Shown one piece after another: positions 1 to 28,406 of a stretch of DNA of 28,406 nt (position 1 is the first letter of the stretch; each line of letters begins with the position of its first letter). Source of the stretch: a virus. The notes under the pieces are model-generated. The model was not told where the DNA came from, did no database searches, and saw only the letters and a program-made list of their open reading frames with translations. Both the position numbers and the translations under genes were made by a program. Where the stretch lies: positions 1-28,406 of the IMG/VR virus record IMGVR_UViG_3300037367_000025; one strand, given 5' to 3'.

Positions 1-807
1 CTTCAGCTCCTGCTCGCGAAGGTGCATCTCATCGAACACGGCCGTCATGCGCTGCGCTTCCTCGATCTGCTTCGTGCGCATGTCCCAGATGTTCATCGAG
101 TCCTTGACGGCCATCTGCTTCTGATCGAAGGCATCGTTCGTCATCGTGAGCGCGAAATCCCGAGCCTTCTGCGCGGCATCGGCGCGGCTCGAGTACGCAT
201 CGAGCATGACCTTGTACATCTGCTGCTGTTGCTCGTTGCGTTCGCGGTACTCCTGCAGCTGCTCCTTCCACTTATCAAGCGCCGCCTTGAAATTCTCCTC
301 CGAGCCCTCGTTGATCCCCTGCGCCATGCCGTTCAGCGCCCCGAGCATGGCCGTGCCGGACAGGCCCGCCGCCTTGCCGCCGAGCGCCGCGAGGATGCCG
401 ATGATCGGCGCCGCCTGCATCGCCGTGCCGTAGAACACCTGGCGGGCTGGGTATTTCTGGAAGAGGTCACTGATTGCGGACTGCTGACGCTGAAGCTCGG
501 ACACCTCACCGGTTGCGAGATCGGCCTTCGACTTATCGGCCGACTCGAGCTCGGTTTCAGCGCCCTGCGCGGCCTGCTTACCTTGCGCGATCTGCGAATC
601 CAGCCCCGAGGTGTCCGGCGGCTGATAGTCTGGAATCTTCTGCGGGCGCAGCGACATCATTCCGGCGAGCATCGGATCCTGCGCCGGCTGCGCGGGTGAG
701 CCCTGAGGCTGCGGCGACGGTGCGGCCTGAGGCTGACCGGGAACGTTCTGAAGCGGGGGCGCGTACCCCGGCATCATGGAGGCAATATCGTCTTCGGTCG
801 TGCTCAT
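1..807 (-). CDS. Probable internal virion (ejection) protein, C-terminus beyond left edge
   Basis: An open frame of 269 codons runs from ATG at 807 off the left edge without a stop. The N-terminal 75 residues are Pro/Gln/Ala-rich. A hydrophobic Gly/Ala segment follows at about residues 125-155 (AAPIIGILAALGG). The rest is a long charged, Gln-rich helical region likely to form coiled coil (LDKWKEQLQEYRERNEQQQQ). The start codon overlaps the stop of the preceding gene by four bases (ATGA), so the two are translationally coupled. A long helical protein at the end of a podovirus-like virion operon fits an internal or ejection protein. No family was recognised, so the role is inferred from position and composition. 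Frame and start are secure. Confidence 0.7.
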   Translation of the reverse strand, partial: MSTTEDDIASMMPGYAPPLQNVPGQPQAAPSPQPQGSPAQPAQDPMLAGMMSLRPQKIPDYQPPDTSGLDSQIAQGKQAAQGAETELESADKSKADLATGEVSELQRQQSAISDLFQKYPARQVFYGTAMQAAPIIGILAALGGKAAGLSGTAMLGALNGMAQGINEGSEENFKAALDKWKEQLQEYRERNEQQQQMYKVMLDAYSSRADAAQKARDFALTMTNDAFDQKQMAVKDSMNIWDMRTKQIEEAQRMTAVFDEMHLREQELK

Positions 808-3020
808 GCCATACCGCCGTACGCGCTCGCCTCAGCCGCGCTCTGCTCGGCGAGGGCCTGCTGATAGGCCTGCTGCTGTTGCGGCGTCAGCTGGGCCGCC
901 GGCTCAGTCGGACCGAAGGGCGAGCCGCTGCCGGTGTACTGCTGAAGCGAGGCGAGGAGCTGAGAGAACCCCGACTCCTGCAGCGCGGACTGCGTTGGAT
1001 CGGTGAACGTGCCGCCCGCATCGACCGCCGCGCTCGACCCTGCGGTTGCGGCCTGGGCGTTGCCGAGATCGGTCGCGAGCGTGTCGTACTGAGACTGGTT
1101 CGCCATGACCGTGCCGTCAGGTCCAGGCAGGTACCATTCGCCCGTTGCGTTCGGGTTCTGAGGCGTCGCACCGCCGACGTAACCGTAGTAGCCGGAGTCA
1201 CCCGGAAGGAACGCGTAGGTCTGAGAGGCCGATGGGGCATTCGGCATCACGTAGCCCTGCCCGGAGACGTTCGTGATGTTCGCCTGCTCTCCAGTCTGCG
1301 TACCGAAAAGTGTGGAAGCATTGCCTTGCGCGAGCTGTGACTCCAATTGCGGATCGTTCGCTGCGTTCGAGGCGGATGGCACGAGGAACGGTGACAGGAA
1401 CGCAGCGGCCCCAAGGCCCAGGCCGAGCGCGGAGACGCCGGCCGCGGCGCTGGCACCCGCCCCTGCCGCTCCCGATCCTGCCCCGCCTGCACTTGCCGCC
1501 ACATCCGCTCCTGTATCTGCCGCCGCCCCTGCCCCCGCGGCGGCTTGCCCGCCAGCGCTAGAGAAATCCCCGAGCAAGTCTCCCACATCTCCGACATCGG
1601 ACCCCGTGTCGGCCGCGAGGCTCGTGAGGTCAGAGCCTCCAACATCCCCGAGCGCGCCGGTCGCATCACCGCTCACCCCATACCCGGTGTCGAACGCGGG
1701 CGTGATGCCGGTCTGCGCGCCCACATCGTAGCCGGGGGTCGCCGTGCCGAAAAGTGACTGGCTCGAGAAGTCCGTGGTCCCGAGATCAACCGACCCAGAC
1801 TGCTGCGAGCCGACCCCGGTCGCCGCGTTCGTGCTGCTCGATGGGCTCAGCGCGTTCTTGACGGCGCTGCCGACCTGATTGAGGAGCGAGTTTGTCGCAC
1901 CCGCGGCGGCACCAGAACCTGACCCGCCCTGGCCGCCTCCGGAAGTGCCACCTGAACTCGTGAACGCCTTGGCGATGCTGCCGAATAGGCTCTGCAGGCC
2001 GGCCGCGAGCTGGGTGTTCTGCTGCAGGGTGATGTTGACCGCATCCTCGACCGGCCCCATGCCAGCGCCGAACTCGGAAACCGCATTCGAGATCAGGCTC
2101 GAGTAGGTTGACTGCACGCCCTGGAGCGCGTTCTGAGCCAGCGTCGTATTGCCCTGGATGAGTTGCTGCGTCTGCTGCGTCGCATTGTTCTGGATCTGCT
2201 GGTCGTACATCGCAATCACGGAGGAGTCCGTGATGCCCTGGCTCGCAAGCTGCGAGCTGATCTGCTGCTGCTGTGCCTGCACGTTCTGCTGGATCTGCTG
2301 CTGCTGCGCCGGAGTGAGTTGCCCCGTGGAGTACTGCGTTGCAAGGCTCCCGAGGTTCTGCGCAGCCTGCTCCGACTGCCCGATCGCGCCACCCGTCACC
2401 GGAGCACCGGTCAGCCCCTGCTGGATCGCCCCGAGCTGACCGGTCGCGTTCTGAATGAGCGGCTGCGAGGGACCCGTGAGCTGGCTCGTGAGTGCGGCCG
2501 TCTGCGACTGCGCTTGGGATGCCTCGTACTCGCCCAGGCCCGCGAGTGTTGCCGCATCGAATGCCGGGTTAGACAGGACCGAGCCGAGGCCAGAGAGGAG
2601 CGAGCCCCAGTTGAGCCCGCTCGCGGCGGTTGCTGCAGTGCCCGCCGCCGATGCACCGGTTGTCGCCGTGCTGCCCGAGCCGAAGCCCGGGTCGAGATTC
2701 AACGGCGATGTGCCGGCGCCCGAGGTGTAGCCCGTGGGGCCGTTCAGGCCCATGGATCCTGTCGCCATCGTCGAGTACGAAGGCAGTGCTTCACTGCTGC
2801 CTTCGGGCGTTGCGCCGGTGTACCCGGCAGGCGCGGTGATGCCACCGGTGCCGTTGAGTGCCGTCGGCCCGGTCGCAGCCGTGGGGGTAGCAACCGCTGA
2901 GCCTCCGGATCCCCCGGCAATGCCAGTGAGTCCGTACGGGTCACTCGAGCCGTAGAGCTGCGATTGCGGGACCGAGGAGGTGTCCGAGGAGCCCGAAGCG
3001 TTGATGCCTGAGATCGCCAT
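804..3020 (-). CDS. Low-complexity Gly/Ala/Ser/Gln-rich virion protein, probable internal protein
   Basis: The protein has 738 residues if it starts at ATG 3020, which shares one base with the upstream stop (TAATG). A GTG at 3035 in the same frame is less likely. The first 110 residues are Gly/Ser/Thr-rich. A Gln-rich amphipathic region follows at about 150-360, with runs such as TPAQQQQIQQNVQAQQQQ. A long Gly/Ser/Ala tract comes next, with one hydrophobic Ala/Gly/Leu stretch, and the C-terminus is again Gln/Ala-rich. This composition is common among podovirus internal or ejection proteins, but no catalytic motif is visible. It sits between a smaller virion protein and the coiled-coil protein, overlapping both by 1-4 bases. 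The function is inferred and the coding call is firm. Confidence 0.7.
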   Translation of the reverse strand: MAISGINASGSSDTSSVPQSQLYGSSDPYGLTGIAGGSGGSAVATPTAATGPTALNGTGGITAPAGYTGATPEGSSEALPSYSTMATGSMGLNGPTGYTSGAGTSPLNLDPGFGSGSTATTGASAAGTAATAASGLNWGSLLSGLGSVLSNPAFDAATLAGLGEYEASQAQSQTAALTSQLTGPSQPLIQNATGQLGAIQQGLTGAPVTGGAIGQSEQAAQNLGSLATQYSTGQLTPAQQQQIQQNVQAQQQQISSQLASQGITDSSVIAMYDQQIQNNATQQTQQLIQGNTTLAQNALQGVQSTYSSLISNAVSEFGAGMGPVEDAVNITLQQNTQLAAGLQSLFGSIAKAFTSSGGTSGGGQGGSGSGAAAGATNSLLNQVGSAVKNALSPSSSTNAATGVGSQQSGSVDLGTTDFSSQSLFGTATPGYDVGAQTGITPAFDTGYGVSGDATGALGDVGGSDLTSLAADTGSDVGDVGDLLGDFSSAGGQAAAGAGAAADTGADVAASAGGAGSGAAGAGASAAAGVSALGLGLGAAAFLSPFLVPSASNAANDPQLESQLAQGNASTLFGTQTGEQANITNVSGQGYVMPNAPSASQTYAFLPGDSGYYGYVGGATPQNPNATGEWYLPGPDGTVMANQSQYDTLATDLGNAQAATAGSSAAVDAGGTFTDPTQSALQESGFSQLLASLQQYTGSGSPFGPTEPAAQLTPQQQQAYQQALAEQSAAEASAYGGMA

Positions 3021-3799
3021 TAGAATACGGCCCACGCCATGCTGATGTTGTTGCTCAAGATGCCCTTCGTACCGCTTGCTGTCCAGCCGGAGGCGCTGGC
3101 GTTAAGTTCGAACTGAAGAAGATTTGCCGTGGTAACGGTCGCCGTGACGCACGATGTGGCTGTCAACTGTGTGGAGTTGTTCTCGAAGAACGTCGTCGGC
3201 ACCGCTACGCGCTGATTGGTCGTCGTGGGCGTGATGGCGGTCGGGATTCCGGAGAGCGTGAACGTCGCGCCGTTGCTCGCTCCGGTCGCTGGGCTAATGC
3301 TCGCGAGGACGATTCCCCCCGTCTTGAACCACGTGAGAGTGAAATTCACCGTCCCAGAAAACCCACCGGCCGCGATGACCAGAGAACTCGTGCCGGATGA
3401 TCCGGATGATGAGGCCCCGAGGATCTGAAAGTACGTTCCGTCGTAGATGAACTTAACGACACTGCCCGCGACGAGCTGCCCGACGAGTGGAGATGTCAGG
3501 TCCTGATTTTTAACCGTGACCGCGCCGAGTGATCCGACGGTGAGCGTCACGGACGAAGAGGTCGTCGTGTTGGCGATCAGCACCGTGACCGCAAGTCCGG
3601 CGATCAGGCTTGCGGTGAGCCCGGTCGACAAGAGCACAGCAATGGCGTTGACAGACCCCGAGTCAGCGAAGAAGTTCTCGTACGTCCCGAGATCATTGAG
3701 CGCGCCGGCGGCATTCGTGTTGTTCGTATCGAGTAAGGACAGCGTCCACGGAGGCGGTGAGCCCGCGAAGGTCGTCGGTGTTGCAATTGGCTTTGCCAT
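3020..3799 (-). CDS. Virion structural protein, beta-rich, function unknown
   Basis: The protein has 259 residues from ATG 3799, which overlaps the upstream stop as TGATG. A longer reading to 3859 would run 60 bases into the upstream gene and is unlikely. The sequence is rich in Thr, Ser, Val and Gly with alternating hydrophobic positions, typical of beta-sandwich phage proteins. It includes VKFIYDGTYFQILGA near residue 113, a phrase often seen in phage fibre or collar proteins. The C-terminal half (GGFSGTVNFTLTWFKTGG onward) looks like a second beta domain. Position after the nozzle-like gene suggests a tail or fibre-associated part. The exact role is not recognised. Confidence 0.65.
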   Translation of the reverse strand: MAKPIATPTTFAGSPPPWTLSLLDTNNTNAAGALNDLGTYENFFADSGSVNAIAVLLSTGLTASLIAGLAVTVLIANTTTSSSVTLTVGSLGAVTVKNQDLTSPLVGQLVAGSVVKFIYDGTYFQILGASSSGSSGTSSLVIAAGGFSGTVNFTLTWFKTGGIVLASISPATGASNGATFTLSGIPTAITPTTTNQRVAVPTTFFENNSTQLTATSCVTATVTTANLLQFELNASASGWTASGTKGILSNNISMAWAVF

Positions 3800-4149: not shown

Positions 4150-5741
4150 ACGCGCCAGCGCTTGCCGAGCTTGTAGTCGATCGCAAGGGTGTGAAGCTCG
4201 AAGTCATACCCTGAGGAAACAAGCCGCAGCCCCACGTGACGCGCGTGCATCGCGGGAGGCTTACCGAAAAGAAGCACGAGCCCTCCGGTGATCCATCCGC
4301 CGGTCACACCGGCCGAGTTCTGCCACGATCCCGTGACACCCGCCGAGTTCATCCACTGACCGGGCGTCGTGGGTTGGTTCATCATCGTGATCGGCAGGGA
4401 CTGCGAGTCCGTATCCGCGTACAGGACGAGCGAGGTTCCGTACTGAAAGTAATCCGCCTCGACTCCGGCCTGGATCAGCTCCTTGTCCTGAACCTCATCC
4501 TCCATCGGGTAGAGCTTCGTCCAGGCAGTTGCGTTCGGTGAGGTCGTCGAGTCCCCGAAGATCTGGTACAGCGTGTTACCGCGAAAGCCAAAAAGCGCGG
4601 GAACGTTGTTCAAGATTCCGGTGACGATGAAGGTGAGCGCACCGAAGTTCGCGAACCACCACACGTCCGTCGATGTCTCGACTCCAGTATTCGCATTCGT
4701 CCCATCGTTCGAGAACCAAAGCGCGATGATCGTGTTGGAGCCGAAGATCGGGTCGTTCAGGCGCTTGATGAGAAACGCACCGCAGAGGATGTTCTCGACC
4801 ACTACCTGCCCGGCACTGATCGTCTGGCTGAAGTCCAGGTACTGCCAGGTGCCATCGATATCGGTAGATGCCTTGGGCGCATCCACACCGATCAGCGTAT
4901 GGATCCCATACGGACTTGCGAACATCACGTTGCGGTCGTACGGGATGACCGAGGCCGGCTGGTCCGAGCCGATGAGCGCTTGCAGGTTCTGATTCGTGAA
5001 CACTGGAGTCGGAGGATTCGCGCCCGTTGGCACGTACACGTCCGATATCGCGTTTATCCCGGTCGTCGAGAAGATGTACAGATACCCGTTCGCCGCGATG
5101 AGCCGATAGACTACCGAGCGTATGGTCGGGTCAGTAAGGTTGGTGGCCGCCGCACCGTTAGCCGCCGTCCAAGAAGCCGCGCTGTAGTCATCGACGCCTG
5201 AGTTGTAGAGGACGCGGCCTTCTGCGATCCAGACTCGGCTTTGGTAGACCGCGATGGCTTGCCCAGCAGATGGGACGCCAGTACCTGTGATCTTGGCAAA
5301 CGTCGTTCCGTCATAGTTGTAATACCCGGTTGAGTCGATGAATAGAATCTCGGTGTTCTTCCACTGCGTACACTGCGAGAGCGCACCCGAGAGAAGGTTG
5401 CCGACGTTCACCTGGGCGGAGGTCTTCGCGACGATGTTGTAGAAGAAAACCTTCCCCGTCGTTGCGAAATTGACGAGGTACTCGGTGCCGTTCAAATTCA
5501 CGCCCTGCGACCAGTAGATCTCATCCGAGGCGTACGGGATCAGAGGCTGGGAGATATTCGGTACGACGTGCGCGTTCTGTGGGCCGATCGGGATGATGTT
5601 CTCGAGGTTGTAGAAGTAGTCATCCTCGATCGCCGTGCGCGCCGCACGGGTGTACACCCCGTTGAAGTTCGTCAGGTACTTCGACAGCAGCGGCCGCTCT
5701 TCCTTCTGCGAGTCGGTCGTCTTTTGAGGAATCGCCGGCAT
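4146..5741 (-). CDS. Probable tail nozzle / DNA-stabilisation protein (beta-propeller-like)
   Basis: The protein has 531 residues and is beta-rich. Recurrent short strand-turn units carry aromatic and Gly/Asn residues (TEYLVNFATTGKVFFYN, TEILFIDSTGYYNYDG, NGYLYIFSTTGINAIS, FGFRGNTLYQIFGD), as expected of a beta-propeller. It directly follows the adaptor-like gene, the same order as adaptor then nozzle in T7-like and P22-like phages (known from those families). Near residues 462-490 a short unit, NSAGVTG followed by W, is repeated twice. The start ATG 5741 shares a base with the adaptor stop (TAATG). The end overlaps the next gene by four bases. The nozzle assignment is an inference from fold style and gene order; the coding call is secure. 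Confidence 0.6.
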   Translation of the reverse strand: MPAIPQKTTDSQKEERPLLSKYLTNFNGVYTRAARTAIEDDYFYNLENIIPIGPQNAHVVPNISQPLIPYASDEIYWSQGVNLNGTEYLVNFATTGKVFFYNIVAKTSAQVNVGNLLSGALSQCTQWKNTEILFIDSTGYYNYDGTTFAKITGTGVPSAGQAIAVYQSRVWIAEGRVLYNSGVDDYSAASWTAANGAAATNLTDPTIRSVVYRLIAANGYLYIFSTTGINAISDVYVPTGANPPTPVFTNQNLQALIGSDQPASVIPYDRNVMFASPYGIHTLIGVDAPKASTDIDGTWQYLDFSQTISAGQVVVENILCGAFLIKRLNDPIFGSNTIIALWFSNDGTNANTGVETSTDVWWFANFGALTFIVTGILNNVPALFGFRGNTLYQIFGDSTTSPNATAWTKLYPMEDEVQDKELIQAGVEADYFQYGTSLVLYADTDSQSLPITMMNQPTTPGQWMNSAGVTGSWQNSAGVTGGWITGGLVLLFGKPPAMHARHVGLRLVSSGYDFELHTLAIDYKLGKRWRV

Positions 5742-7700: not shown

Positions 7701-8732
7701 TTAAATGGTGTTGAATAAAAATTGCGTGCCCGTGCTTCCGACCGTACCCACGCGCACCGTCGTGCGGGGCTTCGCGCACACAAGCTCAAGGAGACTCACC
7801 ACACCGCCGATGAAGCCGATCTGGTACACGGGCAGGAGCGATTCGAACCCGGTGAAGGCGAAGTTCGCCATCTGGTGGAAATACAGCTGCATGTAGTTCG
7901 AGTTCCAAACGTACATGACCCCTTCAGGACAGTACGGATCGCAGTACACCGGCACACCGCCCACATCGAGCGCGCGGAAGAGCGAGCGCGGCCGATCCGC
8001 ATCGGTGTCAAAGGAGGTGCCGGGCGAGATCTGGTAGGACTCAAGGCCGGCGTAGTCGTTTGCGACCAGGCGCTCCCAGGTCCCCATGCCGAGCATCGCA
8101 GCGGTCGGCATCTCCGCACCGTACTTCTGGGCGCCCATCATGTACTGAAGCAGCAGCGCGCGCGTCGGGGCCACACCGCCCGCGGAGTACACCTTGCCCT
8201 GCCAGAAGGTCGAGGCCGAACGGTTGATGTTGCCGTACGAGCTCGCATTCGTGCCGTCATCGATCGCAGCGTTGAAGCCGATCAGCTGCTGAGTGTTCGT
8301 GACATTGACGTAGAGCGCTTGCGAGAGCACATCGACGGTCGAGTTCGTTGAGTCGTTGAACACCGCCTCGATGCGAGGAATGATCGCATGATCGGCCTGG
8401 ATCACAGCTTCGAAGCCATAGAACGGAATCGGGGTCACGAGCCCCTTGAGATTGAACTCCGCCGGCTGGATACCCTGAATGTTCGCCGGCTGGCTGAAGG
8501 AGGCATCGAACCCGACCCACTGCGGGATCGTGAGCGCCTGACCCTGCACCGGCACGGTGATCGATGAGATGCCCCCGCTCGCCGTCTTCGCGTGCTGCAT
8601 GAGAGCTGCGATCGTGGGCGATGCCGAGTACAGCTGCACGTACACGGTCGGAAGGAATCCGCGTCGTGTAATGGCCTCGTACTCCGCGAATTGCGGAGCA
8701 CTGCTCGGCATAATTCCGCTCTGAAATGGCAT
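7701..8732 (-). CDS. Major capsid protein
   Basis: The protein has 343 residues, within the usual size range for HK97-fold phage coat proteins. The C-terminal portion (NSNYMQLYFHQMANFAFTG, then LLPVYQIGFIGGVVSLLELV) is typical of phage major capsid proteins. The mid-region (IPRIEAVFNDSTNSTVDVLS) resembles their spine helix. It forms the icosahedral shell. The gene comes straight after a coiled-coil scaffold-like gene, the classical scaffold-capsid order, and precedes the neck/tail genes. The start ATG 8732 gives MPFQSGIMPSS; the Shine-Dalgarno match is poor (a GAG-rich stretch lies further upstream). Assignment is by family resemblance plus context. Confidence 0.85.
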   Translation of the reverse strand: MPFQSGIMPSSAPQFAEYEAITRRGFLPTVYVQLYSASPTIAALMQHAKTASGGISSITVPVQGQALTIPQWVGFDASFSQPANIQGIQPAEFNLKGLVTPIPFYGFEAVIQADHAIIPRIEAVFNDSTNSTVDVLSQALYVNVTNTQQLIGFNAAIDDGTNASSYGNINRSASTFWQGKVYSAGGVAPTRALLLQYMMGAQKYGAEMPTAAMLGMGTWERLVANDYAGLESYQISPGTSFDTDADRPRSLFRALDVGGVPVYCDPYCPEGVMYVWNSNYMQLYFHQMANFAFTGFESLLPVYQIGFIGGVVSLLELVCAKPRTTVRVGTVGSTGTQFLFNTI

Positions 8733-10203: not shown

Positions 10204-10232
10204 TAAGGTGGGTCGAAAGGAAGTCGCACCGA

Positions 10233-10262
10233 TTAACGGTGCCGTCGGCCACGGCGAGCCAT
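10233..10262 (-). other. Tiny 9-codon frame with a strong ribosome site (possible leader peptide)
   Basis: In the 230-base gap after the portal gene, AAGGAG lies seven bases before an ATG at 10262 that opens the basic peptide MARRGRRHR and then stops. An in-frame ATG at 10310 would give 25 residues. A ribosome site this good on so short a frame suggests a leader peptide or a remnant gene. Nothing else coding is seen in 10123-10355. Confidence 0.3.
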
Positions 10263-10355
10263 AGCGATCTCCTTAGCTGTCGAACGGTGTCGCTCTACGC
10301 CTCCGCACATCTTTCGAGTGCGATCTGACGCCCGCTAAGGACGCCGAACTTGAAT

Positions 10356-12125
10356 TTACGCCGTACCCTGGGGCGGTGCAAGTCCGTTGCCGGCGGGCGG
10401 TGCCGGAGGACCCTTGCCCCCGTGCGAGCGTTTGGCCGCGATCTGCGCGCGCTTCAGATCCATCTCCTCTTTGTGCTCGGCGGCTTGCTGCGGGACGATC
10501 TTCTCGCGGTAGGCTTTCTTCAACGCTGGCCGCATCGGCACATCAATGAGGTCGAGCAGCTCCTCGCCATCGATGATCTTGCGATCCAAGAGTGCGAAGG
10601 CCTTCTGCTCGTTGTTCTCGACGAACACCGGGGAGTTCGTGTGCCCGTCGACATTCGCGTGGAAGTCATCCGGGAACTGCTGCGCGAAAAAGGGTGACCC
10701 GCCTTCTGACTCCTCGCGCATCGCGCGCTTGTCGTAGCGCTTCATGAGCTCAACGATGAGCTCCGCCGCCTCATCGAGCGCCTCCTCGATCACGAGTGCG
10801 CGGTCGCGCACGCGCGTTGAGCCGAGGTTAGATAGAAGCTGCGCGTGCTTATCCGAACGCACCCCGGTCGCGCCCTTGCCCTGGTTGATCGCGGGCAGGC
10901 CCGATAGCTCATCAAACATCTGATCGATCACCTCGATGTCGTGCCACAGATCAGGCGGCAGCTCGGGAGCGACCGACTGCACCGTGGCCGATGGCGAGTC
11001 GACCGACAGAAGGCCCGTCGGGGTATCAAGCGCGTACTGCATCTCCTCCGGGATACCACCGTTTGCACCGGTCACGTATGCGGGCGGATGAGCCTGCTTT
11101 CGTAAGATGTGAAGGATATCCCCCATGCGCTCGTTGCGCAGGTCCTGCAGGGGCGTGAGCTTTTCGACTTCGGAGTGACCCCAGAAATAATCATAACTCG
11201 GGTTCATGCACACTTCGACGTAGGGGATGCGGTGCTCTAAGAAAATCCTCTCTATCGGCCGGTCCCAGATACAGATGTTCGGTGTGACGTAGGTCACGAC
11301 CCGATAGTCTGCGACCTCATCATCGTAGACGTAGAGTTCGGTCCCCTCTATCAGATCGACTTTAGTCGATGGCCGATACAGTGTGGTCAAGGGTTGAGAG
11401 AAGACATTCGCGTTGCCGGTGACCGAATCACCCTGGATTGCAGTCACGATGAGACGGTCGACGGGGTTCGCGTCCGCCATGGCATCATTCTCGTGCCCGC
11501 CCTGCACCTGATCCATGATCTCTTTGATCTGCTTGGGAGTTTTACCGCCTGATTTAAGGTTATTCCGCAGCTCGGACGCCGAGAGGTGGAAGCGCTCGGT
11601 GAAGGCTTCCTGGCGTTTCAGTTTGTCCTTGTCCTCTCTGAGTACACCGAAGTTGTGCGGCTCGACGACGAACGCCTGGATTGCAAAGCCCTCCTCCAGT
11701 TCTTTCTTCTCGTTTATTTTCTTGTAGAGCTTCGGACGAAACTTGAGCAGCACCTTGCCGTACGGGGCCGACCAGCGCACGGCCTGCTTGAATTCCTGAT
11801 CGATGCCCGTGTCGTTCCACTCCGACTGCAAGCGCTCGGTCATCGGCGGGACTTTCTCCTGCTCCTGCGCCGGCACCGAGGGACCCAAGCTGATCGTAAA
11901 GCGCGTCGTCTCCGGTGAGAACATGAACGAGGACAGTTGCTCGCAGTGGGGCAGCACCTTGTTATAGCGCACGCCCTGATTTAACGCCCGATCCTCGCAG
12001 CCGAAGAGATAGTACGAGCGCATCTGCTTGTAGAACTCGCGCCGCGATTCCTGCGTTGCGCCACACTTATTGATGAGGTCCTGATAGAACGTGTCGCGCT
12101 CGGCAGAATCCGACGGGATGATCAC
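10356..12125 (-). CDS. Portal protein
   Basis: The protein has 589 residues, the size of podovirus portals. The N-terminal region (CEQLSSFMFSPETTRFTISL) and the central part (PSYDYFWGHSEVEKLTPLQD, followed by a QDLRNERMGDILHILRK helix) are typical of portal proteins that form the dodecameric ring at the head vertex. It is helical after residue 380 with a DELSGLPAINQGKGATGVRS segment, and has a Pro/Ala/Gly-rich basic tail. It starts with GTG 12125 in a GTGA overlap with the upstream gene and lies one gene after TerL, its packaging partner. Assignment by family resemblance and context is strong. Confidence 0.88.
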   Translation of the reverse strand: MIIPSDSAERDTFYQDLINKCGATQESRREFYKQMRSYYLFGCEDRALNQGVRYNKVLPHCEQLSSFMFSPETTRFTISLGPSVPAQEQEKVPPMTERLQSEWNDTGIDQEFKQAVRWSAPYGKVLLKFRPKLYKKINEKKELEEGFAIQAFVVEPHNFGVLREDKDKLKRQEAFTERFHLSASELRNNLKSGGKTPKQIKEIMDQVQGGHENDAMADANPVDRLIVTAIQGDSVTGNANVFSQPLTTLYRPSTKVDLIEGTELYVYDDEVADYRVVTYVTPNICIWDRPIERIFLEHRIPYVEVCMNPSYDYFWGHSEVEKLTPLQDLRNERMGDILHILRKQAHPPAYVTGANGGIPEEMQYALDTPTGLLSVDSPSATVQSVAPELPPDLWHDIEVIDQMFDELSGLPAINQGKGATGVRSDKHAQLLSNLGSTRVRDRALVIEEALDEAAELIVELMKRYDKRAMREESEGGSPFFAQQFPDDFHANVDGHTNSPVFVENNEQKAFALLDRKIIDGEELLDLIDVPMRPALKKAYREKIVPQQAAEHKEEMDLKRAQIAAKRSHGGKGPPAPPAGNGLAPPQGTA

Positions 12126-12628: not shown

Positions 12629-14470
12629 TTACCTCCGCGGGACGTTGTACACGCGCGCCGCGATGTTCGGGTTCAAAGGCTTAGGCACAATCCCGACCGT
12701 TGTCAAGTAGTTGCGCACCGAGCGGCCGAGCACGGTCTCAGCCGGCGGCTCGAGCTCGACTCGTTGGTCCTCGGGGATCCACACGATGTTCTGCGAGATC
12801 ATCCGCGGGCGAAGCTGATCGTTCCAGGCCTTTACCGCAAGGGCGGCGGCGATCACCCGGTCATCGTGCGCGTCGGAGGTCGCAGCGATCCGGCCCTCAT
12901 CGCGCACCACGGCTTGCATCTCATCGAGCAGGAAACGCGAGTGAGGCACGAAAATCCCGCGCTCGAAGTTATCTTTCATCAGGCCCATGTAGGTCTCTTT
13001 GATCCGCTCGGTCGTAAGCGTGTGCTTCCCCTGCGGCCGAGCATTCATCGAGTCCTCGCGCGCGTAGAGGAACTCCGACATCCGTCGCACCACATCGCGC
13101 ATCCTAAGATCAGGCCCAGGCTTTAACCCCGGGCGAATCGCACGGCCAGCCATGCGACGTAAGTTCTCGATCTCCTGAAATACCGCAGTCCCTGGCCCAT
13201 TGATCTCTATATTATAGAGGCACGGCTGATAGGCGCCTGCGAGATAGACGATCACCCACGCGAACGTGTACGGGGACAGATCAACGGTGCAGTACTCTGC
13301 GACCTGCTCGATCCGATTGGCGTAGCATCGAAGCACTGTCGCAGCGAATCGGTCAGCAGTCTCTGATGAGCCATACGCAGGATCCGCACCCAGCACGTAG
13401 TACGCCCCGCGCACGGGCTCGGCATAGATCCGAAGGTGTGCGCGCGCATCTTTGACATCCTCCAACTGCGTATCGGTGAATTCCTGGCCGAAGTGAAGCC
13501 GAAAGCCATCCGGGGTGCGCTCGCCCAGCACTCGCCGGTAGTGCTCGGTCATCGCCTGACCGGTGAAGTACTTCGAGCCCGAAGCTTGGAACGCATCCTC
13601 AGGCAGGGTCGGGTATTCCTGCAGGAGCTTGATCTCATCGTCGATCTTCTCCGCTGCCATCCAGCGATACCAGGCGATCTGCTCATCATCGAGCTCGACC
13701 CCGAACTCTTTTCGCACCCTCTGGTAGCGCTGGCGCTCATCACCCGAGAGCTTGCCCTTTGAGCCCCAGAACTTGCGCCACAGCTGGGAGTTACGCGCAA
13801 GGCGATAGGTCTCGTTCGACCACCAGCCAATGAAGATCGTCTTGATGGTGGAGGACTGCTTGGCGCTCTCCCACATGCGGTAGAAATGATTGAACGAATT
13901 CGCGGTCGATTCCCAGATGAAAAACCGCATCGGGTTTTTCTCAGCCATCGAGGACTTGAGCGAATAGATCTGCTCCGGGTCGCCCCAGAACGCGGTCTCG
14001 GTACAGTGACAGAAGGACACCGCGGAGGATCGGCCGAGTACCTTCGCGCTCGTCTCTTTCAAGCCCGCGACCTTGTACTGCAGCATCGAGCGGTTCTCGA
14101 ACACGAGCTGGTTGCGGTTGTGCTGAACGATCGGGACTTTCCACTCGTTCGGCAGTCCCTCGTACATCATCTCGAGCTTCGCTCTGAAGTCCTCGCGCGC
14201 CGGATCATCGTGCGTGACGATGACACCGGGGGTGCCGGGATACTTCATGACGAAGAAAAGATCCCAGGCAAGGAGCGCGGTCGAGATGCCGTGCTGGCGA
14301 GCTTTGAGGACTACGAACTCGTGCTGATCCTCGACGAGTCCTATTTGAATCTCATCGAACAGGCGCTGCTGCGTGCCGAGCCAATGTCCGCCCAGCTGGA
14401 TCTGGCCGCGCTCCTTGGTGTTGATCGAGAGCGCGGAGGCGAACTCCAGGAACTGCCGGAAGTCAATCAC
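12629..14470 (-). CDS. terL: Terminase large subunit
   Basis: The protein has 613 residues. The ATPase domain shows a Walker A-type loop at about 56-64 (KARQHGIST) and a Walker B/catalytic acid region around 151-158 (VSFCHCTE). The RNase H-like nuclease domain shows acids at Asp363 (LGADPAYG), Glu422 (YNIEINGPG) and Asp536/537 (SDAHDDRVIA). TerL cuts concatemers and drives DNA into the prohead through the portal. The start is GTG 14470, overlapping the upstream stop (GTGA). No separate small subunit was identified; the preceding 61-aa protein is shorter than usual TerS. Assignment is confident from motifs. Confidence 0.92.
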   Translation of the reverse strand: MIDFRQFLEFASALSINTKERGQIQLGGHWLGTQQRLFDEIQIGLVEDQHEFVVLKARQHGISTALLAWDLFFVMKYPGTPGVIVTHDDPAREDFRAKLEMMYEGLPNEWKVPIVQHNRNQLVFENRSMLQYKVAGLKETSAKVLGRSSAVSFCHCTETAFWGDPEQIYSLKSSMAEKNPMRFFIWESTANSFNHFYRMWESAKQSSTIKTIFIGWWSNETYRLARNSQLWRKFWGSKGKLSGDERQRYQRVRKEFGVELDDEQIAWYRWMAAEKIDDEIKLLQEYPTLPEDAFQASGSKYFTGQAMTEHYRRVLGERTPDGFRLHFGQEFTDTQLEDVKDARAHLRIYAEPVRGAYYVLGADPAYGSSETADRFAATVLRCYANRIEQVAEYCTVDLSPYTFAWVIVYLAGAYQPCLYNIEINGPGTAVFQEIENLRRMAGRAIRPGLKPGPDLRMRDVVRRMSEFLYAREDSMNARPQGKHTLTTERIKETYMGLMKDNFERGIFVPHSRFLLDEMQAVVRDEGRIAATSDAHDDRVIAAALAVKAWNDQLRPRMISQNIVWIPEDQRVELEPPAETVLGRSVRNYLTTVGIVPKPLNPNIAARVYNVPRR

Positions 14471-14652
14471 TGTGATCTGTTACGCGCCCAAGTGAATCCG
14501 CCGAGCAGCTGATCGCAGCTTGCGCACGTTACCGTTCCGTCGTCGTTCAAATAGAAGAATTGAGAACCGCAGGGATGTTGCCAAACGCCGTCGATAGACT
14601 CGTGGAATGTCTTCGACCCGTCTGGGTGCTCCCAGAGCATGTCAGCCATCAC
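14467..14652 (-). CDS. Small Cys/His protein upstream of terL
   Basis: The protein has 61 residues from GTG 14652 (ATG 14649 is the next codon). Three cysteines (28, 43, 46; CASC) and several histidines suggest a small zinc-binding fold. It overlaps the previous gene by 11 bases and terL by four. TerS is usually larger and carries a helix-turn-helix, which is not seen here, so a terminase small subunit role is only a possibility. Confidence 0.55.
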   Translation of the reverse strand: MMADMLWEHPDGSKTFHESIDGVWQHPCGSQFFYLNDDGTVTCASCDQLLGGFTWARNRSQ

Positions 14653-14950
14653 TGCCGCTCGAGCGCTTGCCCTTCTTGATCCCCATGAGGGTGCGTACGG
14701 CCTCGATCTTCTTCAGCTCCTCTTTCAAGCGCGCCTCCTCCTGGTCGAGCTTCTGCATCATCTGCTTGCCCTTAGCCATCGCCGGGTGCATGCCGCCGCC
14801 TTGCTGGGGCATACCGGGGCGCCCCTGCGGCATACCCGGACGGCCTTGCGGCTGGGGCATCCCGCCCGGAGGCTGCCCAGGTTGCATACCGGGCTGCTGT
14901 GGCATACCGCCAGGCTGGGGCATTCCCGGTCTCATTGGTGGCATCGGCAT
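14642..14950 (-). CDS. Met/Pro/Gly/Gln-repeat protein with C-terminal coiled coil
   Basis: The protein has 102 residues. Residues 1-55 are an imperfect Pro-Gly-Met-Pro-Gln repeat (PGMPQ, GRPGMPQ units), predicted disordered. Residues 58-97 are a charged helix (DQEEARLKEELKKIEAV) likely to dimerise. AAGGAG seven bases before ATG 14950 overlaps the stop of the 804-aa gene and decides the start. It might be a virion-associated linker or a small-terminase substitute. Neither can be shown from sequence. Confidence 0.6.
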   Translation of the reverse strand: MPMPPMRPGMPQPGGMPQQPGMQPGQPPGGMPQPQGRPGMPQGRPGMPQQGGGMHPAMAKGKQMMQKLDQEEARLKEELKKIEAVRTLMGIKKGKRSSGSDG

Positions 14951-14960
14951 CGCGCGCTCC

Positions 14961-17375
14961 TTATATGTTAGGTACGACCACGGTCCCGGGGATGCTCGTC
15001 GGTCCCAGGGACAGCGTCAACTGCACGATTGTGCCCTGGATCACGAACTGATTCTGCGGGACCGACTGCGCGATCACGGTGCCTCCAGGGCTCGAAGAGA
15101 TCGCGAACAGATATTTCCCCATCGAGATCCCAATCGACATGAGTGCGGTCACGGCCTGCTGGGCGGTGAGCCCGATCACTCCAGGCATCGGCACCGCACC
15201 CATGGGATACCCGGGGCCGGTCGAGCACACGAGCGTGACGACGGTGCCCTGGATCGGAACGACGGTACCCTGAGGGGGATTCTGCGAGATCACATAGCCC
15301 GCAGGAACGGTGGGGTCGGACTGATAGGTGATCACGACATTAAGCCCTGCGGCCACGATCGCTGCGACCGCGGTATCGATCTGGACCGGCAGCGCTCCCG
15401 GGCCGTTTGAGACGGTGATCGTGATCAGCGTGCCGAAGGCGACCGGGGTGCCGGCGACGATCGACTGGCTGATCACAAGGCCCGCCGGCACGGTGAGCGA
15501 GGCGGCAAGGGCAATCGCAACCGTGAGCCCCGAGGTGTAAAGCGTAATCACCGCGTTGTACTCGAACGGGTTGCCGCTCGTCACATCCGGTACCAACGTC
15601 TGCGCGGCCGTTGCGACGAGTGTGATCGTGAACGTATTCGAAACCGCGGAGGAGGGCTCGGTGTTAGATCCGGTGATCTGCACTGAGTACACTCCCGCGA
15701 CCATCGCGCCCGATTGCTCGATCAGTGAACCGGTGAGCACGAGGCCAGAGCCGGCGAGGCCCGTCGCGGAGTACGAGGTTGCGTACTGGAAGTACGGTGA
15801 GACATCGAAGTTCGGCCAGTTCCCGTTCGTCAACTGCGAGGGCGGATTGGGGATCGGTCCATTGAATGCGACCGGGTTCGGCGACCCGGTGACGACGATC
15901 GAGAACGGCGCGAGCGTCGCCGAGTCGGTGTACGAGTCGGTCGCCTGAACGAGGAGGTTCGTCGTGGAGCCCACGACCGTCGGTGTGCCCGTGATGAGCC
16001 CAGTCGATGATGCGATCGTGATGCCAGTCGGTAGAGGATTCCCGCTCCCGGACATCGACCAGGTGAGGATATTTCCACCGGTCGGATCCGGATTCACGAA
16101 ATCGTTCGCGATCGGGATCGATGCGATCGCGACGTTCTGCGCATAGCTCTGGTTCGGCACCGTGCCGATCGCCTGCGGGAACGGGGCGTGCAGGTCCCAG
16201 GTGAAAAGCGCCGACCACACCCCGCCCGTCCAGTAGCGCCACTGACACTGACTGATCTGGTACGCCCAGGCGAAGGTGCCATCGGTGCGCAGCGAGAACG
16301 TGTTCGTGAAGCTCGGGTTACTCACGATCGTCGTCTGACACTCGATCTGCGCGCCGTTCGGGATATCGGTCGGGGTGTCGTAGAACCTCGACGGCTTATT
16401 CAGCACATCGAACGTGAGCGCCGCGAGCGTCGTCGTGTTCACGCTGAACACGTTCGCCGCCTTGTTCAGCGTGATCGCAAACGTCCCAGTCGCCGAGCCG
16501 TTGTTCACGGTGAGCGTGCCGGTACCATACGGCAGGTTCCCCTGCACCACCGTGATCGTGATGCTGGTCGTCGACTGCGAGGTGATCGTCTGTGTGACGG
16601 TGACGCCCGAGATCGTGATCTGGACCGTGTTGCCTGAGCTTGCGAAATTCGATCCCGCGATGATCACTCCGGTTGCACCCGGTGAGAGCGCACCGACGCT
16701 CGTGATCGCAGGGTTCGAGGACTGCGTGCCGGGGTTCAGCACGATCACAAGTCCCAACGGGAAGTTCGATGTGCCCCCGGTGACGACCATCGATCCTGCG
16801 GGCACCGTCGCGGCGGTTGCCTGCACGAAGTAATCCATGATCGTTGAGATCGGATGCGCGCCCGACAACGACTGCTGGTCGACCCGGTTCACATAATTCG
16901 TGGTCGTATCCGCAATGCTCGTCGTCGCAGCCGAATACGCGCTCATCGCAAGGCACAGACAGCCGTTCGCACCCGGCAGCGGCAAGGCCGGATACTGCAT
17001 GTTCGTCGAACTGTACGAGGCGTGCGCTGAGACACCGAAGAGGCTCGCAAGCGCAGGCGCCGAGCCGCCTCCGACCCACACCCACACGGCGACCGTCACG
17101 GCCACCTGGCTCGAGTCGGTCCCGAGCGTCGGGTTCGGCTCGCTCGAGCCTGCGATCCAGCCGTACAGGCGCTGGTACGCCCAACTCTGATCGGCGATCG
17201 TGTACGCGTTGCTGCCCGACGTCGGCGTGACGCACGTGAACGACACGTTATACAGGCGCTTCCAGATCACGATCGCTGCGCCCGCCGGCATCCCCGCAGG
17301 CAGTACGCAGGTCGGTGCTGTCGTGCCGTTACCGCTGATCGTCCCTAACCCGTACAGCTCCCACTGTGAGGCCAT
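14961..17375 (-). CDS. Large secreted-style virion protein with IPT, Ig-like and PASTA domains (fibre/receptor or wall-binding candidate)
   Basis: The protein has 804 residues and is modular. Residues 1-220 form an N-terminal domain of unknown type. Residues 223-303 resemble an IPT/TIG domain (PAITSVGALSPGATGVIIAG). Residues 405-496 resemble a putative-Ig He_PIG domain (GITIASSTGLITGTPT). Residues 500-590 form another beta domain. Three PASTA-like repeats follow at about 595-660, 661-721 and 727-792, each with the PAG-VISQ-P-G-V--G--V-----GPG pattern. PASTA domains bind muropeptides or peptidoglycan in bacterial kinases and PBPs (known). The last residues, VVVPNI, match the opening of a further PASTA unit. 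Adhesion to the host wall or surface is the likely role. Position upstream of terL, away from the other tail genes, is unusual. Confidence 0.7.
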   Translation of the reverse strand: MASQWELYGLGTISGNGTTAPTCVLPAGMPAGAAIVIWKRLYNVSFTCVTPTSGSNAYTIADQSWAYQRLYGWIAGSSEPNPTLGTDSSQVAVTVAVWVWVGGGSAPALASLFGVSAHASYSSTNMQYPALPLPGANGCLCLAMSAYSAATTSIADTTTNYVNRVDQQSLSGAHPISTIMDYFVQATAATVPAGSMVVTGGTSNFPLGLVIVLNPGTQSSNPAITSVGALSPGATGVIIAGSNFASSGNTVQITISGVTVTQTITSQSTTSITITVVQGNLPYGTGTLTVNNGSATGTFAITLNKAANVFSVNTTTLAALTFDVLNKPSRFYDTPTDIPNGAQIECQTTIVSNPSFTNTFSLRTDGTFAWAYQISQCQWRYWTGGVWSALFTWDLHAPFPQAIGTVPNQSYAQNVAIASIPIANDFVNPDPTGGNILTWSMSGSGNPLPTGITIASSTGLITGTPTVVGSTTNLLVQATDSYTDSATLAPFSIVVTGSPNPVAFNGPIPNPPSQLTNGNWPNFDVSPYFQYATSYSATGLAGSGLVLTGSLIEQSGAMVAGVYSVQITGSNTEPSSAVSNTFTITLVATAAQTLVPDVTSGNPFEYNAVITLYTSGLTVAIALAASLTVPAGLVISQSIVAGTPVAFGTLITITVSNGPGALPVQIDTAVAAIVAAGLNVVITYQSDPTVPAGYVISQNPPQGTVVPIQGTVVTLVCSTGPGYPMGAVPMPGVIGLTAQQAVTALMSIGISMGKYLFAISSSPGGTVIAQSVPQNQFVIQGTIVQLTLSLGPTSIPGTVVVPNI

Positions 17376-17378
17376 GAC

Positions 17379-18650
17379 TTACTGCGGCAGGCCCGAGGGG
17401 TAGGCGGTGTTCGTCAACGGATTCGCATCGATGAACGGCAGCACGCTCGTCGACCAGTCCGCGGCGTTACTCGTTGACTGCCTCGCCCAGGCCATGAAGT
17501 GCTGCTGCACTGTGCCGTTCGCCCACGCAAATAACTGCGCCGGCGTCGCGTTCCCGCCATTGAACTGCCCGCCGTAAATATCCGGGGTCTGCACCTGCCA
17601 CATCCCGGGCAGCACACTCGGCTGGCCCGGTGAGGGCGGCAAGAGCTTCATCGACCCGGGGAACTGCCCCGTGTAATAACACACCCCGTCGGTGCCGTTG
17701 TAGTTCACGCCCCCGACGGTGTTCGTCGTCTGATAGAGCGTGTCCGGCCCGCCGAACCCCGCGCCCGCCGCGACCAACGCATTCCCGAACGCTACCTTAT
17801 CCGCGAGCGCGACTCCGATCCAGTTGAACTCGACCGAGAACACCGTCTTCGTCCACGCTGCCGCCATCGTCTGTGCGAGCGACACCTGCCCCGCGGTCCA
17901 GGACGTATTCGAATACCCATACGGCCCATAGATCGACTGAAAATTCGGGATGTTCCCCGCATCCGAGGGCAAGCTCTCATCGTTCGCCGTGATCCACGCG
18001 AGTGCCGGGTGGCCGTTCAGATTCCCACCGGTCGGTGAGGCAAGCCAATTCAACAGCAGCGCGTACTCAGCAAGGAGCGCCGTGTTCGACTCCATCAATC
18101 GCGTCACACCCGGGGTCTGACCGGTCGTCGAGCCCGTGTACACCCCGCCGATCTCAGACTGCACCGGTGAGCTCAACGAGCCGGCGGTCTGAAACTGCGG
18201 ATTCCAATTCGGATCCGTCGGTGAGTACCAGTAAGAGGGCAGGATCGCACTCTGATCCGAGTTGAAAAAGATATCCGTGATGATCTCAACCGCGAGATAC
18301 CGCGGAGTGCTCAGGCCGTGCAGGTACGCCAAGTCCTGCGCGATCGGAGCGGTCGTGTACTGGCGGTAGCCGGTGAAAAACGCACTGATCGGGATATAAA
18401 GCAGATACCCCGCAAGGTGCGGATGCGCGTTCCCGTTCGAGGTCGGAATATCCTGCTGATACGTCAGCACGCGCTGGCTGAACGGGGCCGTCGACAGCCC
18501 CCGACTCAACGCACTGTAGTGCTGGCCGGGCAGAGTGAGCGGCGGCCAGACCTTCTCGCCGCCCGATAGCGTCTGCGAGGGTGCGGTCTCACGAGTACCC
18601 GTCGAGTCCGCAATCGCCTGGATCGCGTTGACACCCGTGCGTGAAACCAA
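17379..18650 (-). CDS. 423-aa protein, unknown; possible enzyme fold; start uncertain
   Basis: The open frame gives 423 residues from a TTG at 18650 that lacks a Shine-Dalgarno site. The sequence alternates hydrophobic strands and helices (HLAGYLLYIPISAFFTGY, RYLAVEIITDIFFNSDQ, ALLLNWLAS then HPALAWITANDES), which could be a TIM-barrel-like hydrolase, but no catalytic motif was recognised. An ATG at 18703 with GGAG upstream, placed directly after the preceding stop, opens an out-of-frame 11-codon peptide and stops at 18668. The present frame stays open above 18650 and also reads well there, so an indel or frameshift near the start is suspected. It is coupled to the 804-aa gene (three-base gap). 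Depolymerase or lysis enzyme are possibilities only. Confidence 0.6.
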   Translation of the reverse strand: MVSRTGVNAIQAIADSTGTRETAPSQTLSGGEKVWPPLTLPGQHYSALSRGLSTAPFSQRVLTYQQDIPTSNGNAHPHLAGYLLYIPISAFFTGYRQYTTAPIAQDLAYLHGLSTPRYLAVEIITDIFFNSDQSAILPSYWYSPTDPNWNPQFQTAGSLSSPVQSEIGGVYTGSTTGQTPGVTRLMESNTALLAEYALLLNWLASPTGGNLNGHPALAWITANDESLPSDAGNIPNFQSIYGPYGYSNTSWTAGQVSLAQTMAAAWTKTVFSVEFNWIGVALADKVAFGNALVAAGAGFGGPDTLYQTTNTVGGVNYNGTDGVCYYTGQFPGSMKLLPPSPGQPSVLPGMWQVQTPDIYGGQFNGGNATPAQLFAWANGTVQQHFMAWARQSTSNAADWSTSVLPFIDANPLTNTAYPSGLPQ

Positions 18651-18867: not shown

Positions 18868-19241
18868 ACTCTGCTCCCTTTGCGTAAATTGCACGTAGGC
18901 CTCATCAGTTGCAAGTTCCCTCGTACGTGCTCCCCGCCGTGAGCGAGCGGCACCCGATGATCCACGTGATATTCCCACCTCACATCGCGCCCACACCCGC
19001 AGGCACACTTCCAGCCCTGACGCTCCCCCATCTGGCGAATATCCTCCTCGGTCACACGCTCGCGGCGCGCCAACTCGAGCATCTCGCGCCGGCGAGCTCG
19101 ATCCTCAAGCCGCTTCGGCTTCAGACACTCCAGACACTGCGCGCGCAGACTCCCAGAACCGTTCTTCACGAACCAACCCAGCGGCCGGGACTCACCGCAC
19201 CCGAGGCATACCCTACGCAGCGGGCTAGCGGCGTATTCCAC
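18864..19241 (-). CDS. HNH endonuclease
   Basis: The protein has 125 residues. An N-terminal zinc-binding pair lies at Cys12/Cys15 and Cys36/Cys39, and a basic helix at 43-62. The HNH core at about 79-121 has HVDHRVPLAHGG, NLQLM and TCNLRKG, giving His/Asp-His, Asn and the second metal-site cysteine. Family members nick or cut DNA using one metal ion. In phages they are either packaging-associated partners of terminase or free-standing mobile nucleases. Here the gene lies in the late operon but five genes before terL. The start is GTG 19241, overlapping the RHH gene by 17 bases with a weak ribosome site. Confidence 0.85.
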   Translation of the reverse strand: MEYAASPLRRVCLGCGESRPLGWFVKNGSGSLRAQCLECLKPKRLEDRARRREMLELARRERVTEEDIRQMGERQGWKCACGCGRDVRWEYHVDHRVPLAHGGEHVRGNLQLMRPTCNLRKGSRV

Positions 19242-19419
19242 TTTGCGTCAGCACCTTGGCAGGCAATGAGCTGTCCTGAGATGGAGGATCTACCCACCTT
19301 TGATGCCATTCTTTGAGTACGAAACGCACCTGGGCCGGCAATGAGCGGAAGTTCTCCGCAGCATCATCCCTCAAGGCCTGAAGAATGTCTCCGTCAATGT
19401 CCAGCCTAACTTCAGCCAC
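19225..19419 (-). CDS. Ribbon-helix-helix (Arc-like) DNA-binding protein
   Basis: The protein has 64 residues from GTG 19419, fixed by an AGGAGG site nine bases upstream. A longer frame to 19641 has no supporting start. The N-terminal strand AEVRLDID, followed by helices DGDILQALRDDAAENF and LPAQVRFVLKEWHQRW, is the ribbon-helix-helix pattern of Arc/CopG-type repressors. These bind DNA as dimers through the strand. The C-terminal 20 residues are polar. It is the first gene after the repeat-rich non-coding region and so a good candidate regulator of the late operon or of that region. Confidence 0.7.
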   Translation of the reverse strand: MAEVRLDIDGDILQALRDDAAENFRSLPAQVRFVLKEWHQRWVDPPSQDSSLPAKVLTQSGIRR

Positions 19420-19544
19420 TAGTTTGTACCTCCTCTGGGAAGTATGGCGTATTTTTTTGGGGAAGAAAAGCGTGTTGGGCACCAGGACATTCACGCGCGC
19501 GGCCCATTTTGTGAGCCAGGGTCCGGCGCGCTCTGGTACCACTA

Positions 19545-19667
19545 CTAGACGGCTTCTTGACAGAAAATGCCATTTAACATAATGGTTATTATGCGCATTA
19601 CAATTAGAAATATCATTAGAATCATCAGATTGCGACCACACTCGGCCATCTGAGCATGTGCAGACAT
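19545..19667 (-). CDS. Possible 40-aa membrane peptide
   Basis: A frame from ATG 19667 gives a peptide with a polar start (MSAHAQMAECGRN), a hydrophobic stretch LMILMIFLIVMRIITIMLNG and a short tail. It could be a small one-span membrane protein. The upstream GGTGA is a modest ribosome site. The frame lies in AT-rich DNA, where hydrophobic codons arise by chance, so this is a weak call. Confidence 0.25.
   Translation of the reverse strand: MSAHAQMAECGRNLMILMIFLIVMRIITIMLNGIFCQEAV
19557..19583 (+). promoter_or_regulatory. Possible plus-strand promoter in the control region
   Basis: A perfect TTGACA (19557-19562) is followed 15 bases later by CATAAT. The spacing is short of the optimum of 17, and no plus-strand gene follows closely, so it might make an untranslated or antisense RNA. 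Low confidence. Confidence 0.2.
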
Positions 19668-28127: not shown

Positions 28128-28406
28128 ACTTTCAGATCACCAATCGTTTTTCCGGCGCCGTGATGTTCGAGTGCGAGCTGTCGGCCGAGATCGCGGGCTC
28201 ATCTTACGGGCTGCGACTCGGGTTCGCCGTGAAGAAGGCTGTTGAAGCGGGCGCGAACCTGGCGGGCGCGAACCTGGCGGACGCGTACCTGGCGGGCGCG
28301 AACCTGGCGGGCGCGAACCTGGCGGACGCGTACCTGGCGGGCGCGTACCTGGCGCGCGCGAACCTGGCGGACGCGAACCTGGCGGACGCGTACCTGGCGG
28401 ACGCGT
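28124..28406 (+). CDS. Pentapeptide-repeat protein, truncated by right edge
   Basis: It starts at ATG 28124 with AGAGG five bases upstream. Residues 1-42 form a non-repeat N-terminal part ([20 protein letters not shown]). From residue 43, ten complete A(N/Y)L-type pentapeptides follow ([20 protein letters not shown]) before the edge. The family folds as a right-handed quadrilateral beta-helix. Some members mimic DNA and inhibit gyrase (known). The repeat codons are almost identical, so the array is young. The role here is unknown. Confidence 0.8.
28250..28406 (+). repeat. 15-bp tandem DNA repeat encoding pentapeptides
   Basis: Ten full 15-bp units and part of an eleventh run to the window edge. 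Units differ mainly at the first codon (GGC, GAC or CGC) and the third codon (AAC or TAC), while GCG, CTG and GCG are fixed even at wobble positions. This points to recent expansion by slippage or recombination. Confidence 0.85.

Follow-up and report, generated by a model that had tools for sequence, protein, structure and literature searches.

The window analysed here, a virus record of 28,406 nucleotides (28.4 kb), encodes a probable phage surface protein, genuine but not the only one of its kind, specified by a single uninterrupted open reading frame of 804 codons with three PASTA modules. We judge it a little better than even that this protein is an accessory rod of the virion surface in which the PASTA units serve as interchangeable display modules with weak adhesion, and we infer both its presence on the virion and its adhesive character. 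As we picture it, an Ig-like rod (TIG, He_PIG, and further beta-rich sequence) would be lengthened by the three PASTA units; the uncultivated tailed phage would produce it jointly with a 423-aa partner and display it on its head or tail. The PASTA units, as promiscuous display or adhesion modules, would thereby extend the rod and bind the host surface weakly and multivalently at adsorption. The features discussed below are collected in Table 1.

Table 1. Features of the window (nucleotide positions) and placement of PASTA genes at other phage loci
Feature	Position	Strand	Remark
PASTA protein, 804 aa	14961..17375	-	Neutral; K+R 1.2%
N-terminal region, residues 1-220	16716..17375	-	No detectable family
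TIG/IPT-like Ig fold	16485..16712	-	Sub-threshold Pfam match
He_PIG Ig-like domain, residues 408-496	15888..16154	-	Pfam
PASTA unit 1, residues 595-657	15405..15593	-	33.8 bits
PASTA unit 2, residues 667-718	15222..15377	-	39.4 bits; begins without the customary VPxVxG
PASTA unit 3, residues 728-789	15009..15194	-	29.3 bits
VVVPNI at the C-terminus, suggested opening of a fourth unit	14964..14981	-	Predicted disordered
423-aa gene	17379..18650	-	K+R 2.8%; ends 3 nt ahead of the PASTA gene start
102-aa gene 3' of the PASTA gene	14642..14950	-	Pro/Met/Gly-rich plus charged helix
terL	12629..14470	-	phrog_2, 3.7e-13
Portal	10356..12125	-	phrog_156, 8e-10
Major capsid protein	7701..8732	-	phrog_9953, 9e-27
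PASTA gene of L029, L030, and L058	Downstream of terL and portal		PHROGs-typed neighbours
PASTA gene of L045	Downstream of portal		PHROGs-typed neighbour
PASTA gene of L043	Directly upstream of terminase genes		Neighbours terL and portal
PASTA gene of L048	Between capsid and portal		Neighbours MCP/protease and portal
PASTA gene of L053	Before capsid gene		Neighbour MCP
PASTA gene of L057	After tape measure		Neighbours terL, MCP, and tape measure
PASTA gene of L055			Neighbours head closure and ejection proteins
PASTA gene of L046			Neighbour endolysin
PASTA gene of L040	After tail fibre		

The Pfam PASTA model (PF03793) matched the protein with a total of 80.3 bits (E = 1e-22), and each of the three units separately exceeded the curated cut-off of 23.2 bits (29.3 to 39.4 bits), which bears out the three domains claimed in an earlier note on this DNA. 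The nearest sequence type of the array turned out to be the PknB/Stk1-type PASTA. The units share 35 to 44% identity at the protein level and only short matches at the DNA level, and by their sequences appear to be old copies. AlphaFold2, supplied with an alignment of IMG/VR phage PASTA units, modelled residues 655 to 804 as two alpha-beta-beta-beta units, corresponding to units 2 and 3, with a pLDDT of mostly 80 to 92; the whole 804 residues modelled without relatives gave an uninformative result (pLDDT 32). When the model of units 2 and 3 was used in a Foldseek search, the best 30 PDB matches were all PASTA-bearing proteins (PknB, PrkC, StkP, PBP2x, PBP1, and PonA2), with a TM score of up to 0.89 against single PknB units. 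At the level of predicted structure, the PASTA fold of units 2 and 3 is confirmed, and the refutation that the earlier note had named, a structure prediction showing no PASTA fold, therefore did not come about. Unit 1, which lies above the Pfam cut-off, is assigned to PASTA from its sequence only.

The IPT and Ig-like domains also proposed earlier fared unequally in the profile search: He_PIG (PF05345) scored 43.2 bits, above its curated cut-off of 24 (E = 5.6e-11), while TIG/IPT (PF01833) stayed below threshold at 19.3 bits versus a curated cut-off of 20.9 (E = 2.5e-5 over the window). The N-terminal region gave zero matches among 50,697 phage records, and neither the whole protein nor a kinase PASTA array significantly matched any family of PHROGs v4. 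The low Lys-plus-Arg content of the protein is similar in other beta-rich late-module genes of the window (e.g., 0.4% and 1.3%). One late protein of 743 aa (804-3035, minus strand), with just 0.4% Lys and Arg, is rich in Gly, Ala, Ser, and Gln and has no PHROG or Pfam match.

The array shares its fold with the sensor region of PknB, PrkC, and StkP and with the PASTA domains of PBP2x and PBP1. Unlike these kinases and penicillin-binding proteins, however, the phage protein has no kinase, transpeptidase, or membrane segment and almost no Lys or Arg. The Pfam family search found neither a kinase nor a transpeptidase domain, and the Stk1 model (NF033483) reached 68 bits, far under its cut-off of 450. 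A contig called viral in error, with a piece of a bacterial kinase or PBP on it, would have precedents, since both INPHARED PASTA matches inspected (L012 and L013; MT835764 and MT836719, "Bacteriophage sp.") proved to be full bacterial PASTA kinases rather than phage proteins and likely represent cellular contigs. For the window, such contamination has a negligible probability and was rejected, because the contig carries terL, portal, capsid, and primase/helicase genes and the PASTA protein contains no kinase or PBP domain.

In addition to these genes, the record encodes RecE- and RecT-like proteins. The PASTA gene lies on the late strand two genes upstream of terL, with the portal and capsid genes further on, a setting that supports the phage origin and the virion-module neighbourhood assumed earlier. 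The placement "next to terL" was nearly right, as only the 102-aa ORF sits between the two genes. The 423-aa gene on the other side yielded no family, phage relative, or credible PDB match, and its product is likely a partner of the PASTA protein. Elsewhere in the window, a 138-aa ORF (19225-19641, minus strand) scored below threshold as FitA-like ribbon-helix-helix (19.4 bits versus 27), and a pentapeptide-repeat protein begins at 28160-28406 (plus strand) and runs off the contig end.

A DNA motif scan of IMG/VR added about 15 PASTA proteins in which no kinase motif is present. Ten of these (L029, L030, L043, L046, L047, L053, L054, L055, L057, and L058) were profile-scanned; PASTA was above the cut-off in all ten and a kinase family in none. 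Of those with a neighbour typed by PHROGs, most lie in phage structural modules. The ten proteins thus resemble the one described here in carrying PASTA without a kinase motif, and differ from it in having one or two confirmed units, no He_PIG (0/10), and other N-termini. At a further locus, L048, a 131-aa protein (4533-4928) located between capsid and portal has only a short N-terminus besides its single PASTA unit and is a small candidate for PASTA display on heads. Independently of the IMG/VR scan, phage PASTA-fold proteins were found by structure in BFVD, namely the "PASTA_pknB domain containing protein" of uncultured Caudovirales (A0A6J5NDH4, A0A6J5KNS9, A0A6J5NY54, and A0A6J5NCK4) and a Siphoviridae "PASTA domain" protein (A0A8S5MTT6); their sequence identity to the protein studied here is low (18 to 24%), and the likeness seen is that of the PASTA fold. 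The premise that PASTA repeats normally belong to kinases and penicillin-binding proteins holds for cells but overlooks phages, in which such proteins recur. A second DNA motif scan (VPDVVG...) was discarded, as it returned no PASTA and mostly antisense-looking frames of what is apparently another abundant phage gene. The motif VPDVVGxT matches more than 100 viral contigs (L059-L178), mostly in a stop-containing frame that looks antisense to one abundant phage gene, and is a trap for motif-based PASTA censuses.

The sole close relative found, L011, is identical to the window from about 13 kb to the window end, including the PASTA gene; it represents the same strain and therefore provides no independent evidence. 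Between 10.2 and 12 kb (10224-12000, the portal gene), about 90 bases differ between the two, reflecting either strain variation or recombination. No PASTA was found in the closest annotated terL relatives (two Manatee Spring phages, 41%), in three other viral terL relatives, or in the scanned DNA of MAG terminase relatives. In the terL relatives with a readable flank (L016-L020 and L022), the slot upstream of terL was occupied by other genes, some of them enzyme-like. Since the relatives checked carry other genes in this slot and no PASTA, the PASTA cassette is accessory in this lineage, and for the same reason the slot may hold cargo rather than structure.

A non-virion role, in which late or cell-borne accessory cargo would alter the cell surface or disturb host PASTA kinase signalling, agrees with this varied slot and with the mimicry of kinase sensors by PASTA domains. 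We consider it improbable, as the gene lies on the same strand as the packaging genes, the PASTA of other phages sits within capsid and tail modules, and the N-terminus has no strongly hydrophobic segment as judged by hydropathy only. The virion rod is favoured by the profile matches and the PASTA fold, by the way PASTA recurs among the virion genes of unrelated phages, by the Lys-plus-Arg content shared with beta-rich late genes, and by the late-strand site near terL, portal, and capsid, while the varied slot in relatives and an N-terminal anchor domain matching no family argue against it.

The function suggested in the earlier note, a wall-targeting adhesin, is only plausible. In a specific form of this proposal, the array would bind host peptidoglycan or lipid II and so anchor the virion to exposed wall. 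The same fold does bind such ligands in cellular proteins: in PrkC, only one of the three PASTA units binds muropeptide, with Arg500 required for the DAP contact (PMC3601408), and PknB binds mDAP lipid II through residues that include those of the linker (PMC6428115); the PknB/Stk1-type sequence of the phage array points the same way. PASTA domains do not, however, bind muropeptides intrinsically (review, PMC3601408), and the phage array contains no Arg and a single Lys in 210 residues. The mean number of Lys plus Arg per unit was 0.24 in 17 PASTA units of other phage loci versus 5.9 in the control, which was small and biased and comprised eight units taken from two bacterial kinases. This composition speaks against carrying over the known DAP contact but does not weigh against other ligands. 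The MAGs with terL relatives, which belong mostly, not solely, to Gram-negative phyla (binning is unreliable), may also count against wall-specific binding, which we regard as unlikely. Less probable than either this or the cargo role is a broader proposal, that PASTA is a general phage virion display fold whose low-charge units would detect nascent peptidoglycan or lipid II, so that virions would adsorb preferentially to cells that grow or divide. It is from the PASTA binding literature and the Arg and Lys counts that we prefer the display rod over the peptidoglycan adhesin and the non-virion cargo.

The array had further been described as ending in a cut-off fourth unit, represented by the last six residues, VVVPNI, a description that was not confirmed. 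The letters are real, and the GP-to-VP spacing equals that separating units 2 and 3; a VPN[IV] end is expected in ~0.2% of shuffles of the last 12 residues (a hand estimate for a post hoc test). However, these residues had a pLDDT of about 44 in the AlphaFold2 model, and the PASTA stop codon TAA abuts a ribosome-binding-like GGAG followed by the ATG of the 102-aa gene, so that this site overlaps the stop. Read-through (VPNI*GARDADATNE) gave a 4.4-bit PASTA match that ended at once, and nothing else PASTA-like was found past the stop. A recent shortening from four or more units, with VVVPNI as a remnant, would be compatible with any of the proposed functions, and the register of VPNI and the read-through score agree with it. 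We nevertheless hold it doubtful, as no further PASTA-like sequence follows, the next gene begins immediately, and the PASTA protein of L055 likewise stops about 13 aa after its final unit, in MVPLI; such tails may therefore be normal. Judged from the sequence, the loss of a fourth unit is possible, and a once longer array is weakly supported.

The literature that we found treats PASTA as a cellular wall-sensing fold, and searches on phage PASTA returned no description. Because PHROGs v4 also gave no matching family, while BFVD already lists some such proteins, phage PASTA is poorly documented but already present in databases. A close parallel is with the Ig-like domains of phage virions, reportedly described by Fraser et al. 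in 2006, which are proposed to hold weakly to the host surface as the phage adsorbs. Those domains are likewise modular and occur in the head and tail genes of various unrelated phages; the present protein differs from them in that its last three units have the PASTA rather than the Ig fold. The repeated presence of PASTA within capsid and tail modules, in environmental phages unrelated to one another, suggests that it is an exchangeable surface module, as is the case with Ig folds.
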